This document shows, in pieces, positions 22,226 to 32,954 of a stretch of 34,203 bases of DNA; position 1 is the first letter of the stretch, and each line of letters begins with the position of its first letter. The translations under genes and the position numbers were made by a program. The stretch covers positions 1 to 34,203 of the IMG/VR virus record IMGVR_UViG_3300030331_003025, one strand, 5' to 3'. The notes under the pieces were generated by a model. It was not told where the DNA came from. It worked only from the letters and a program-made list of their open reading frames with translations, and made no database searches. The stretch is from a virus.

Positions 22226-22420
22226 TTAATCTATTTTTAAAATATTTTCTTGTTGTTCTGCGTTTTTTGATCGCAGAAAGTTTACGATGTTACGTTGTCC
22301 GAAAAAATAATCCATTTCTCTTAAATCATCTTTTGGACCAAATTCTTTTGCCGGAAAAATTTCATCCAGCTTTTTTATTAGTTCGTTAGAAACAAAGGGG
22401 AAACTATCTTCTTTAGGCAT
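22226..22420 (-). CDS. Small conserved phage protein of unknown function
   Basis: A 64-residue acidic protein: SNELIKKLDEIFP, a short linker, then FFGQRNIVNFLRSKNAEQQENIL. A conserved GQR-IV-FL core followed by EQ-ENIL is known to me from small genes upstream of the head-tail genes in cyanophages and other marine podoviruses; function is not established. It overlaps the upstream basic gene by eight bases and ends six bases before the Pro-rich gene, so all three are likely co-translated. Confidence 0.7.
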   Translation of the reverse strand: MPKEDSFPFVSNELIKKLDEIFPAKEFGPKDDLREMDYFFGQRNIVNFLRSKNAEQQENILKID

Positions 22421-22670
22421 ATTTTTTAACCTTTAGCTTCACTCTAGCTGCTTTAGTGTTTGCAACAAATTGTTTTCCCTTGGCTCCGGCTCTCTTCTTT
22501 TTCTTGGCTGTTGTCGCTCTTTGAGCTTTTGAAAGCCGACGAGCTTTAGCGAGAGGCAAACAACGATCTGGGTTCTTTTTATTTTTACTTGTACCGCATG
22601 GTCCTTTAATGCCTCCGTCGGTTCCAATACGAACCCACTTTTGTTTTCGCCATTCAGCTAAAGCGCCCAT
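22413..22670 (-). CDS. Small basic two-cysteine protein (DUF5872-like)
   Basis: An 85-residue Lys/Arg-rich protein. The conserved part is WRKQKWVRIGTDGG (7-20) followed by GPCGTSKNKKNPDRCLP (23-39), with the only two cysteines (25 and 37) twelve residues apart, then a basic helix-rich tail (LSKAQRATTAKKKKRAG). Proteins with this K-W-R-I ... GPCG ... RC-P pattern occur in marine phages; I recall the name DUF5872 but could not check it. No function is established to my knowledge. It is one of five tiny basic genes in a row. Confidence 0.75.
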   Translation of the reverse strand: MGALAEWRKQKWVRIGTDGGIKGPCGTSKNKKNPDRCLPLAKARRLSKAQRATTAKKKKRAGAKGKQFVANTKAARVKLKVKKYA

Positions 22671-22671
22671 G

Positions 22672-22842
22672 TTATTTCTTTCTTACTTTAAGAGATTTAC
22701 GGTTCTTCTTTTTGCTTTTGCCTTTAGCGTAGCTGGGGTCTTTACAGTAACGTGAGGCTGCCATATTAGCGTAAGCCGAAGGGTACTTATCAAAAGTCCG
22801 TTTGGCCCAGGCTATACCTTTAGGACATATTTTATTGCCCAT
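22672..22842 (-). CDS. Tiny basic two-cysteine protein (56 residues)
   Basis: A 56-residue ORF ending two bases before the next gene. It reads KICPKGIAWAKRTFDKYPS (4-22), then AYANMAASRYCKDPSYAKG and a tail of KSKKKNRKSLKVRKK. Two cysteines (6 and 33) flank the amphipathic core; the CPKG-AWAKR-F-KYPSAYANM-AS pattern recurs in small proteins of marine phages as I remember them. No enzyme motif is visible. A purine-rich AAGGAGG lies upstream, inside the end of the preceding gene, though farther from the ATG than usual. Confidence 0.72.
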   Translation of the reverse strand: MGNKICPKGIAWAKRTFDKYPSAYANMAASRYCKDPSYAKGKSKKKNRKSLKVRKK

Positions 22843-22846
22843 AGCA

Positions 22847-23008
22847 TTATTTACCTACCTCCTTGATAGCTCTTTTATGTGCTTCAGTAAAAGACATGCC
22901 GCCTAGCATTGCTTTGCGCATGAACATCATGTGTTTTTTAGTGTGGTGCTTAGAGTGACGCTTCATCGTCTTCTCTTGCCTGACACTTAGACCTTTCCGT
23001 GCTTTCAT
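22847..23008 (-). CDS. Tiny basic His/Met-rich protein (53 residues)
   Basis: A 53-residue ORF with no cysteine but five histidines and seven methionines, concentrated in MKRHSKHHTKKHMMFMRKAM (15-34), then GGMSFTEAHKRAI and VGK. A pattern of RQ-K-MKRHS-HH-KKHM followed by SF-EAHK-A occurs in small proteins of cyanophages and other marine phages, from memory; function is unknown. The start codon overlaps the stop of the 25-residue gene upstream (ATGA). The His/Met block could bind metal or nucleic acid, which is only a guess. Confidence 0.7.
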   Translation of the reverse strand: MKARKGLSVRQEKTMKRHSKHHTKKHMMFMRKAMLGGMSFTEAHKRAIKEVGK

Positions 23009-23082
23009 TTTTTAATTTTTAGATCTTTACGCTTTTTCTTAGCTTTTTTCTTTTTGGGTTTAGGTGTTGTATATCCGTACAT
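23005..23082 (-). CDS. Minute lysine peptide (25 residues)
   Basis: A 25-codon ORF, MYGYTTPKPKKKKAKKKRK then DLKIKK: thirteen of 25 residues are Lys or Arg. It fits exactly between its neighbours, starting four bases after the 89-residue gene and sharing ATGA with the next start, which is the main reason to believe it is translated. Similar MYGY-P-K peptides occur in this position in other marine phages to my recollection. It could be a protamine-like DNA or RNA binder, or simply a linker for coupled translation. Confidence 0.5.
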   Translation of the reverse strand: MYGYTTPKPKKKKAKKKRKDLKIKK

Positions 23083-23086
23083 GTTA

Positions 23087-23356
23087 TTAGCAGTCCCACT
23101 TTCTAAGGGCTTTATTTATTCGTGAATTAGGATCTCTGGCTGTTTTTGCAGAGGTTAACCTTCGTTTCATTCCTTTCATCCTGGCGCAAAACGAACGTCT
23201 CCTTGCAGCTGACTTCTTGCTTTTTTTAGCTTGTTTAGCTGAAACAGGAGGTTTGAGATTACTTCCCTGTCGTTTGGCTGCGCGTCTTCCTGCTGCATTT
23301 AAGCCCCCAGAAGGTGACTTATGTTTTGAGGTAAGCTTAATGCGTTTTTTAGCCAT
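23087..23356 (-). CDS. Small basic two-cysteine protein (DUF6321-like)
   Basis: An 89-residue basic protein with three conserved blocks: KSPSGGLNAAGRRAAKR (13-29), LKPPVSAKQAKKS followed by RRRSFCARMKGMKRR (52-66), and the end DPNSRINKALRKWDC (75-89). Its two cysteines are at 57 and at the very last residue. I associate the SPSGGLN ... SFCARM-GM ... ALRKW-C pattern with a family of unknown function in T4-like and T7-like marine phages, probably DUF6321, not verified. It opens the tiny basic gene cluster, just after a 33-base gap behind the nucleotide hydrolase gene. Confidence 0.78.
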   Translation of the reverse strand: MAKKRIKLTSKHKSPSGGLNAAGRRAAKRQGSNLKPPVSAKQAKKSKKSAARRRSFCARMKGMKRRLTSAKTARDPNSRINKALRKWDC

Positions 23357-23389: not shown

Positions 23390-23752
23390 TTAAATATCTT
23401 TTAATTTATCAGGCAATTTACCCTCCTTTACCCATTCGTCAGTTTGATACAAACACATAGCGTTCCAGATCACTGCACTAAGATGATCTTCGTCCTCAAA
23501 GCCTTCCATATAGGCCCAGAGATGTCGGTAAATAGCGTCGATGTATCTACTGAAAAACTGACCCTTCTCCCAGTTGCGCGCCCCATACTTGTAAGATCCA
23601 TCCTCGAACCTGCGACTGACTGCGCGTAAGCTACTGATGGGCAGTTGGTTAGGAAAACCTTTACCTTTCATTGAATCGCGCACCGATCCGGTTTCAAATT
23701 CAGTGCGTTCGCCGCTATCTGGTAGTTCGTTTACTTTTTCGTTGGTGTCCAT
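23390..23752 (-). CDS. dATP/dGTP diphosphohydrolase-like protein (MazG-like fold)
   Basis: A 120-residue protein with the core of phage dATP/dGTP diphosphohydrolases: GSVRDSMKGKGFPNQLPISS (22-41), KYGARNWEKGQFFSRYIDA (55-73), HLWAYMEGFEDEDHLSAVIW (77-96) and NAMCLYQTDE. The Glu/Asp residues in the EG-EDEDH block are those expected to bind metal. Such enzymes turn dNTPs into dNMPs; the relative MazZ serves 2-aminoadenine phages, but no PurZ-like gene is in this window. The start overlaps the exonuclease gene by 22 bases. It may trim host dNTP pools or remove damaged nucleotides. Confidence 0.82.
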   Translation of the reverse strand: MDTNEKVNELPDSGERTEFETGSVRDSMKGKGFPNQLPISSLRAVSRRFEDGSYKYGARNWEKGQFFSRYIDAIYRHLWAYMEGFEDEDHLSAVIWNAMCLYQTDEWVKEGKLPDKLKDI

Positions 23753-31645: not shown

Positions 31646-31841
31646 GTTGATAAATTATGTCAGCGTTTTGTCACCTCCAAGAAGTTTTCGCAGAACAGTA
31701 TTTTGGTATTTGACTGGTGACAAAGCTTTGAAGGACAACGGTTATAGAATAATCGATAAGAACCCCCAGTACCTAAATCTGGCGCGTCTACCAGTTCCGC
31801 CACAGCCGCACAAAGCTTAAAACCTATACTGGACATACGTT
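31646..31841 (-). other. Phage attachment region (attP) between int and RNA polymerase
   Basis: A 196-bp non-coding interval holding a partial tRNA-Leu gene as core and copies of a TTTGTCAC motif: plus strand 31666-31676, minus strand 31724-31716, with two more on the plus strand just inside int (31900-31908 and 31910-31920). Such repeats on both sides of a tRNA core are what integrase arm-type sites look like. AAGCTTTG occurs on both sides of the core too. A weak host-type promoter may exist near 31722-31695 (TTGTCA, 17-base gap, TACTGT) ahead of the polymerase, but it is not convincing. Confidence 0.7.
31766..31809 (-). other. Partial tRNA-Leu(UAG) sequence, attP core
   Basis: Read on the minus strand, the 44 bases are the 5' half of a leucine tRNA: acceptor strand GCGGCTG, TG, D-arm GCGGAACTGGTAGACGC, anticodon strand CCAGA, loop TTTAGGT (anticodon UAG) and ACTGG. 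The variable arm, T-arm and the complementary acceptor strand CAGCCGC are missing, so it is no functional tRNA. Cyanophage P-SSP7 has a 42-bp piece of a tRNA-Leu gene at the same place beside int. This is the expected crossover region with the host chromosome. Confidence 0.85.
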
Positions 31842-32954
31842 TCAAGCTATTTTGTTGTTCTCCTTTTTAGACTTTAAATTGTCCCTAAATTGGGACACAT
31901 TTGTCACTGTTTTGTCACTTAACTCCAGACCCCTGTCTAAAGCGCATAAAGCTTGTCGAAGGTTGCTTGGAGATAGCTTTGCGTAACGCATAGATTGCTC
32001 TAGCGATTTATGACCCAACATCTCCTTTACAAGATAGATGGACCCGGTCGCTTCAACAATCCTTGAGCCACAAGTATGCCGAGTCAAATAAAAGACAAAA
32101 TCCTTGTCACGCGTTCTTCCCATGTGTTTTCTGACCTTATCCCACACCGTTCTAATTCGCTCTTTCGTCCAATAATCCCAAAGTTTATCTCTATGAGCTT
32201 GGTTTTTATAAGAGACAATTGCTCGTCTTGTCAATGGAATCGTTCTATTTACTTTTGACTTTGTGTTCTCTGCATACAAATCAACAACCAATCCAAGATT
32301 GTCATCTGTCCTTACATGTTCAGGTCTTATAGATCTTGATTCCCCAGGACGGCAACCAGTATCCATTTGCCAGCAAAAAAAGTCATAAAAATAATCTTCG
32401 CCTGACGCTTCAAGAAATTCCAGTATCTCTGCTTCCTCCTCACGGGAAAAGAAAACATACCTTTCATTATCAACTTTAATTTTTGGAAAGGTCGGCTTTG
32501 ATTGAATGTATCCGGCCTTCAAAACTTCAGTCATGGCCGTTGAGAGTGTAGCAAATTTAAGCTTGCGTGTTGCATCACTGTTACCAGCTTGTTTTAAATG
32601 CAGATTTAAAGCGTTTAATTCAACAAGATCAATGTCCTTTACTTTCATCTTAGAACCAAAATACTCACAGATCATTTTAGAATGGCTGAAGGCATTGTCA
32701 TAGTTTGCTTTACCTTTCCAGTGAGTATCCAAAACTAAATCAAACATCTCCTGTAAGTTAATCTCTGATTTTAGTTTCTGTTTTTGTTCGCTCGTCTTCG
32801 TAAACTTATCGATTGACCACCCAGCTTCAAGATGCCTTTTAAAATCTAACTCTTCTGCTTGTGCGTCTTTTTTATCAGTAAAGCTTTTTCTGTAACGCTT
32901 GCCAGCATACATAAAGTCATACTGCCATTTTTTTCCTTTAGGTCTTATTGACAT
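31842..32954 (-). CDS. int: Tyrosine integrase
   Basis: A 370-residue tyrosine recombinase. An N-terminal AT-hook-like/arm-binding part (1-60, with KKWQYDFMYAGKRYRKSF) is followed by a SAM-like core-binding domain (65-160) and the catalytic domain. Visible active-site residues: Arg202 in DTGCRPGESRS, Lys232/Lys234 in NTKSKVNRTIPL, Arg292 in YLTRHTCGSR, His315 in MLGHKSLEQS and the nucleophile Tyr324 in MRYAKLS. The usual His of the HxxR box is Tyr289. It should recombine attP, directly downstream, with a host tRNA-Leu gene. Its own 3' end carries two of the likely arm-type repeats. The ATG follows GGGTAAAAG. Confidence 0.95.
   Translation of the reverse strand: MSIRPKGKKWQYDFMYAGKRYRKSFTDKKDAQAEELDFKRHLEAGWSIDKFTKTSEQKQKLKSEINLQEMFDLVLDTHWKGKANYDNAFSHSKMICEYFGSKMKVKDIDLVELNALNLHLKQAGNSDATRKLKFATLSTAMTEVLKAGYIQSKPTFPKIKVDNERYVFFSREEEAEILEFLEASGEDYFYDFFCWQMDTGCRPGESRSIRPEHVRTDDNLGLVVDLYAENTKSKVNRTIPLTRRAIVSYKNQAHRDKLWDYWTKERIRTVWDKVRKHMGRTRDKDFVFYLTRHTCGSRIVEATGSIYLVKEMLGHKSLEQSMRYAKLSPSNLRQALCALDRGLELSDKTVTNVSQFRDNLKSKKENNKIA

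Follow-up and report, generated by a model that had tools for sequence, protein, structure and literature searches.

What could five adjacent genes for tiny, strongly basic proteins be doing in a marine phage that places them between its nucleotide metabolism genes and its virion genes? The locus lies on the minus strand of a viral sequence of 34,203 nucleotides (IMG/VR record IMGVR_UViG_3300030331_003025), the whole of which was analyzed and is referred to here as the window. Below, the cassette is characterized, its families are traced through other phages, and the resulting explanations are weighed.

A five-gene cassette in a T7-like phage

In reading order on the minus strand, the cassette consists of gene 1 (positions 23087 to 23356; 89 residues, with Cys57 and a C-terminal Cys89), gene 2 (23005 to 23082; 25 residues), gene 3 (22847 to 23008; 53 residues), gene 4 (22672 to 22842; 56 residues, with a YPSAYAN module), and gene 5 (22413 to 22670; 85 residues, with a PCG..DRCLP module). 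The genes are tightly packed, with a 4-nt gap, a 4-nt overlap (the end of gene 2 with the start of gene 3), a second 4-nt gap, and a 1-nt gap. Lys and Arg make up 34, 52, 30, 32, and 32% of the products of genes 1 to 5, and the calculated pI values are 12.0, 10.6, 11.5, 10.4, and 11.4, respectively. The 89-, 56-, and 85-residue proteins contain exactly two Cys each, and the 25- and 53-residue proteins contain none. The 53-residue protein is rich in His and Met (five and seven residues), and 13 of the 25 residues of the smallest protein are Lys or Arg. On the 5' side, the cassette is preceded by a dATP/dGTP pyrophosphohydrolase-like gene (23390 to 23752) and an exonuclease gene; on the 3' side, it is followed by tail and portal genes. 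A first-pass annotation, made by reading the DNA without database searches, had reported five tiny coupled genes at this position, their richness in Lys and Arg, the two Cys in each of the three longest products, and the unusual composition of the two others, and all of these descriptions proved accurate.

Comparison of the window with PHROGs gave matches to terminase, capsid, portal, scaffold, two tail proteins, and three internal virion proteins, as well as to phage RNA polymerase, DNA polymerase, exonuclease, and integrase. The window is thus a temperate T7-like phage. A scan of the 20 larger window proteins revealed no prohead protease family, and T7-like phages are not known to encode this protease. 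A short ORF between the RNA polymerase and integrase genes (31660 to 31845) marks a possible attachment site; its peptide resembles a translated tRNA end, and ARAGORN called no tRNA in this interval.

Family assignment of the cassette genes

Gene 1 matched the Pfam family DUF6321 (PF19846) over residues 12 to 87 (E value, 8.8e-20) with a score of 71.6 bits, above the Pfam cutoff of 28.5 bits. Genes 3, 4, and 5 matched PHROGs 31838 (3.9e-10), 27331 (2.1e-24), and 23735 (1e-25), all three of which are families of unknown function. Because these four genes belong to Pfam or PHROG families, the cassette is beyond chance. The families of genes 1, 3, 4, and 5 are designated F1 (DUF6321), F3, F4, and F5. 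Counterparts of gene 2 were recognized at three other loci (L020, L034, and L170) as Lys-rich ORFs that begin with MYGY and overlap the next gene, that of the gene 3 type.

DUF6321 relatives were detected by tblastn in 280 of 50,697 phage records, mostly those of marine cyanophages and pelagiphages. F3 was found at 70 loci in viral contigs. The F5 profile converged on one superfamily of 213 ORFs, which includes a Cys-less LPSAA form and a CGR..YPKCVP form. A PDB sequence search with genes 1 and 5 returned nothing useful. Our literature search found no paper naming DUF6321 or T4-GC 119 (a cyanophage gene cluster described below), and the titles and abstract openings listed for papers on cyanophages and either prohead protease or basic proteins of small size named nothing similar. 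Two features of the database records may be mentioned. The DUF6321 genes at L009:4001-4246 and in Pelagibacter phage Greip are annotated "RecA-like recombination protein," a label without support here. Records OQ594354, OL906435, and PP438419 are named for three different hosts, have 65,014 bases each, and carry the same DUF6321 match; they may represent one phage.

Co-occurrence of the families in other phages

Neighborhoods were collected from viral contigs around F5 (80 loci), F4 (77 new loci), F3 (68 new loci), and F1 (80 loci). Loci whose flank was shorter than 1.5 kb to either side of the anchor were dropped (24/80, 23/77, 28/68, and 31/80, respectively). The four sets consist of nearest relatives and partly share contigs, so the counts that follow are not independent of one another. 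Within 2 kb of F5, F4 was present at 55 of 56 usable loci and DUF6321 at 36 of 56; within 2 kb of F4, F5 was present at all 54 usable loci and DUF6321 at 25. Around F3, F5 was nearby at 19 of 40 usable loci, DUF6321 at 17, and F4 at 12. Around DUF6321, F5 was nearby at 8 of 49 usable loci, F3 at 1, and F4 at none; DUF6321 therefore often occurs without the other three. Every nearby match lay on the same strand as its anchor, and F4 matches numbered 78 in the 308 kb near F5 versus 1 in the 501 kb far from it. The order F1-F3-F4-F5 was kept at 17 of the 28 loci outside the window that have all four families. The first-pass annotation had named a lack of co-occurrence in other phages as a refuting outcome; the families instead proved to co-occur strongly.

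Single-linkage clustering of the carriers merged nearly all loci, and a stricter graph gave 18 groups from 143 loci; the cassette is therefore not confined to one close lineage. DUF6321, F4, and F5 also lie close together among virion genes in C75C1, a phage of another build. The ORFs form a conserved cassette, and the 53- and 25-residue proteins travel with the set.

Two neighborhoods contained other genes of note. One region of C75C1 (L001:5325-8006) contains genes for a gamma-glutamyl cyclotransferase and an amidoligase. In HTVC034P (L002:20549-21091), DUF6321 is followed by a different tiny basic set, which comprises a 45-residue protein, a 60-residue KAGNYTKPG protein, and an 82-residue Cys-less protein of the F5 type; the latter two types are fused in other contigs.

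The two-Cys families are modules of long cyanophage proteins

F4 and F5 occur as one protein in eight ORFs, and six further ORFs combine F5 with F8, another tiny family. Joining goes much further in T4-like cyanophages, where the T4-GC 119 proteins (phrog_727 and relatives) range from 134 to 994 residues with variable module content and order. Among 15 cyanophage proteins examined by profile, DUF6321 was found in 14, F4 in 9, and F5 in 6. All three were found in four proteins, those of S-SCSM1 (517 residues), P-SSM2 (271 residues), ACG-2014f (939 residues), and S-CAM9 (696 residues), and F4 with DUF6321 was found in S-SM1, S-SSM5, Syn33, and S-RIM8. The 495-residue S-SM1 protein additionally has an F5-like stretch that the profile missed; PHROG 12753 contains both this stretch and the F5 stretch of S-SSM7. 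In S-CREM2, F5 and F4 are on ORF160 and DUF6321 is on ORF137. Since phrog_727 covers the whole S-SM1 protein (E value, 2.3e-191) and matches parts of both S-CREM2 ORFs, the latter look like one protein split in two. The families of the three two-Cys proteins are therefore joined modules within one or two long proteins of T4-like cyanophages. The final Cys of DUF6321 is the last residue of the protein in 175 of 207 ORFs, as it is in 12 of 14 cyanophage proteins. Genes 2 and 3 were not found within the multimodule cyanophage proteins. A prohead protease gene was seen in both S-CREM2 and S-SCSM1.

Putative cut sites between modules

T4 gp21, a prohead protease, cleaves after L/I-X-E (PMC9026906), and the proteases of giant phages are described as cleaving after other short motifs that end in Glu (PMC9026906, PMC5694885). 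In 15 proteins from 14 cyanophages, profile matches or short Cys patterns were used to locate module starts, and the 16 residues preceding each start were inspected. The pattern [LIVMF]xE preceded 28 of 40 module starts; shuffled linkers had a mean of 7.6, and none of 2,000 trials reached 28. The strict T4 motif, [LI]xE, preceded only 12 of the 40 (shuffle mean, 2.9). When other linker windows of these proteins served as the comparison, with one Cys pattern of the 40-start count omitted, [LIVMF]xE preceded 27 of 39 starts (10.3 expected; 0 of 20,000 draws) and [LI]xE preceded 11 of 39 (4.4 expected; 31 of 20,000 draws). Relatedness among the cyanophage proteins makes all of these motif counts nonindependent. 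A site of the expected kind is present at positions 54 to 58 of the capsid protein in S-CREM2 (LTE) and in S-SCSM1 (LAE).

The starts of the single genes match the module junctions. Among 193 single F5 ORFs, 150 have their first Met 6 residues ahead of the conserved Trp. In F5 modules, a Glu lies 6 residues before this Trp in 4 of 11 cases and 12 residues before it in 4 more, and the start Met of the P-SSM2 and ACG-2014f proteins lies 12 and 6 residues before it, respectively. In DUF6321 modules, a Glu was found 3 to 5 residues before the Trp in 13 of 13 cases, 6 of which lack the full motif. A pattern resembling a capsid-targeting peptide gave five matches (shuffle mean, 0.4), which are only a lead because the pattern was chosen after the sequences had been seen.

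Cysteine pairing and predicted fold

The first-pass annotation had offered, as one of several suggestions, a redox- or metal-linked complex in which the proteins would be joined through their cysteines. This suggestion draws on three neighboring proteins with exactly two Cys each and on families that are adjacent or fused. The cysteines were found to be kept or lost in pairs: among aligned F4 rows, 172 had both Cys, 10 had neither, and none was mixed; F5 had both in 184 and one in 2, and a further 26 F5 ORFs had none; and all 193 aligned DUF6321 pairs had both. Subsets of these counts at 70% identity contained only 6 to 14 usable pairs. Such pairwise retention or loss within a module disfavors links between different proteins and weakens the proposal of a complex, which we now regard as very improbable. 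The pattern fits a predicted disulfide bond inside each module.

AlphaFold2 predicted DUF6321 as a small, all-helical domain (pLDDT, 88.1; pTM, 0.69), and its model of an F4-F5 fusion was only fair (pLDDT, 72; pTM, 0.42). In Foldseek searches of the PDB, the DUF6321 model had no match and the fusion had only matches with E values of 9 to 10, to which VIA-align added none. In a viral structure library, DUF6321 had 16 matches with E values of 1e-3 or below, of which 12 were named DUF6321, 3 were unnamed, and 1 was an S-SCSM1 "Virion protein." Outside this range, an apparent DUF6321 fold (E value of about 0.1; 34% identity) was seen in a 679-residue Ferritin/DPS-domain protein and a 1,143-residue AAA-domain protein of uncultured phages; these could be cargo joined to the domain.

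A confidently modeled small fold would suit ordered structural parts of the particle, that is, capsid decoration, cement, or neck proteins, and the DUF6321 gene of P-SCSP1d, a relative of P-SCSP1u, lies directly 3' of the major capsid gene. The modules, however, occur singly or spaced along proteins of widely differing length. Moreover, the cryo-EM account of P-SCSP1u, a DUF6321 carrier, describes a capsid made of the major capsid protein only, with no decoration proteins (PMC10575957), so DUF6321, if present in that virion, does not form an ordered component of its shell. We consider a structural role of this kind unlikely.

Virion evidence in relatives

The suggestion that these are virion DNA-condensing proteins was examined against published virion proteomes. 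Mass spectrometry of purified S-CREM2 virions detected ORF137 (4 unique peptides) and ORF160 (7 peptides) (PMC10665884, Table 3). A genome scan covering all positions outside 100001 to 103999 found no other module-bearing ORF at E values below 0.01. Detection of both is weak evidence alone, because it amounts to 4 and 7 peptides, 52 proteins were detected in all versus 221 annotated features, and carry-over is possible. Both terminase subunits are absent from the same virion table. S-SCSM1 gp029, which has all three modules, is labeled "virion protein" in its record; the text of the S-SCSM1 paper reports a mass spectrometry total of 45 proteins but does not itemize them, and the label probably derives from those spectra. 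In all six records viewed that have T4-GC notes (P-HM1, S-SSM7, P-SSM2, P-SSM4, S-SSM5, and Syn33), the T4-GC 119 gene is tagged "similar to Synechococcus phage S-SM1 protein." The same tag is on GC190, reported to be in the virion (PMC3037559), and it is absent from gp16 and gp17 where these were seen and from P-HM1 gp8; it may therefore be a sign of virion detection.

Other proteomes gave less. The S-SZBM1 DUF6321 protein, gp084 (entry _192, with numbering matched via the neighboring 87- and 424-residue entries), is absent from the 30 proteins of virion Table 1 of PMC9146016. A different S-SZBM1 protein in that table, S-SZBM1_139 (L326:23989-25362; 457 residues), has a two-Cys CWxGY stretch and a long Ala/Lys-rich region resembling histone H1. 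None of the families was found in the first 40 kb of P-SS2, for which a virion table is published. Our literature search found no virion proteome of the window phage or of any T7-like carrier, and the portions of the P-SSP7 and P-SCSP1u literature consulted contained no peptide lists.

A virion location is thus supported in relatives by same-family modules in S-CREM2 particles and by the S-SCSM1 label, with the S-SZBM1 result standing against it; of the earlier suggestion, the virion part gained ground to this extent. The principal competing explanation places the proteins in the infected cell and not in the virion: they would bind nucleic acid or the nucleoid of the host, or would help head assembly or DNA packaging, and their detection in cyanophage virions would reflect carry-over. 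The low S-CREM2 peptide numbers and the missing S-SZBM1 protein would be accounted for in this way, as would the placement of the genes, which in cyanophages lie among terminase and neck genes and in the window follow DNA metabolism just before the virion genes. Carry-over sits poorly, however, with a virion table that contains both S-CREM2 module proteins and neither terminase subunit, and with the S-SCSM1 label, and it leaves the motif enrichment at module borders without a reason. We judge a role confined to the infected cell to be rather improbable, with an appreciable chance of being correct.

DISCUSSION

The best explanation of the cassette, in our view, is that it encodes small, basic internal proteins of the virion, which lie alongside the phage DNA and act like the internal proteins of T4; we put this at about an even chance. 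In T4-like cyanophages, the prohead protease would cut at hydrophobic-x-Glu sites between the modules, and the freed pieces would resemble the proteins that the T7-like phage of the window encodes as separate genes. Each module would be a small fold held by a disulfide bond between its own two cysteines. Its charge would keep the protein on the packaged DNA, along with which it may be ejected.

More broadly, and more tentatively, a kit of disulfide-stapled basic minidomains may be shared, as DNA-side virion cargo, by marine phages of unrelated kinds (T7-like, T4-like, and others) and, in its DUF5872 form, in algal giant viruses, with a polyprotein bearing cut sites where a prohead protease is present and tiny separate genes where there is none. 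We regard this generalization as possible, with the balance against it. The connection of tiny genes to cyanophage proteins detected in virions would assign hundreds of genes annotated as "hypothetical" to the virion and would offer prohead processing as a mechanism that can be tested. It also suggests that small basic ORFs, which gene callers readily miss, are virion cargo.

How does the cassette compare with known systems? DUF5872 (PF19197) is common in giant viruses. Genes 4 and 5 had no match to it at E values up to 1 (Pfam cutoff, 27.5 bits); unlike these separate 56- and 85-residue proteins, an F4-F5 fusion ORF (L253) and an F5-type ORF (L300) scored above the cutoff. The family is listed for a Chrysochromulina virus (PMC12085832).

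The T4 internal proteins IPI, IPII, and IPIII are about 8 to 20 kDa in size and number some 300 copies per head; an N-terminal targeting sequence is removed by gp21, and many are ejected into the host (PMC9026906). The cassette proteins, at 25 to 89 residues and pI values of 10.4 to 12, are likewise small and basic, and the two groups are likened by these properties, not by homology. The families described here differ from the T4 proteins in being mostly two-Cys modules, encoded as single genes in the T7-like phage and as several modules per protein in cyanophages, and the window phage differs from T4 in having no recognized prohead protease among its 20 scanned larger proteins. Another close counterpart is the T4-GC 119 protein, which has the same modules as the cassette (DUF6321, F4, and F5) and differs from it in carrying them on one long protein, in phages such as S-CREM2 and S-SCSM1 that have a prohead protease gene.
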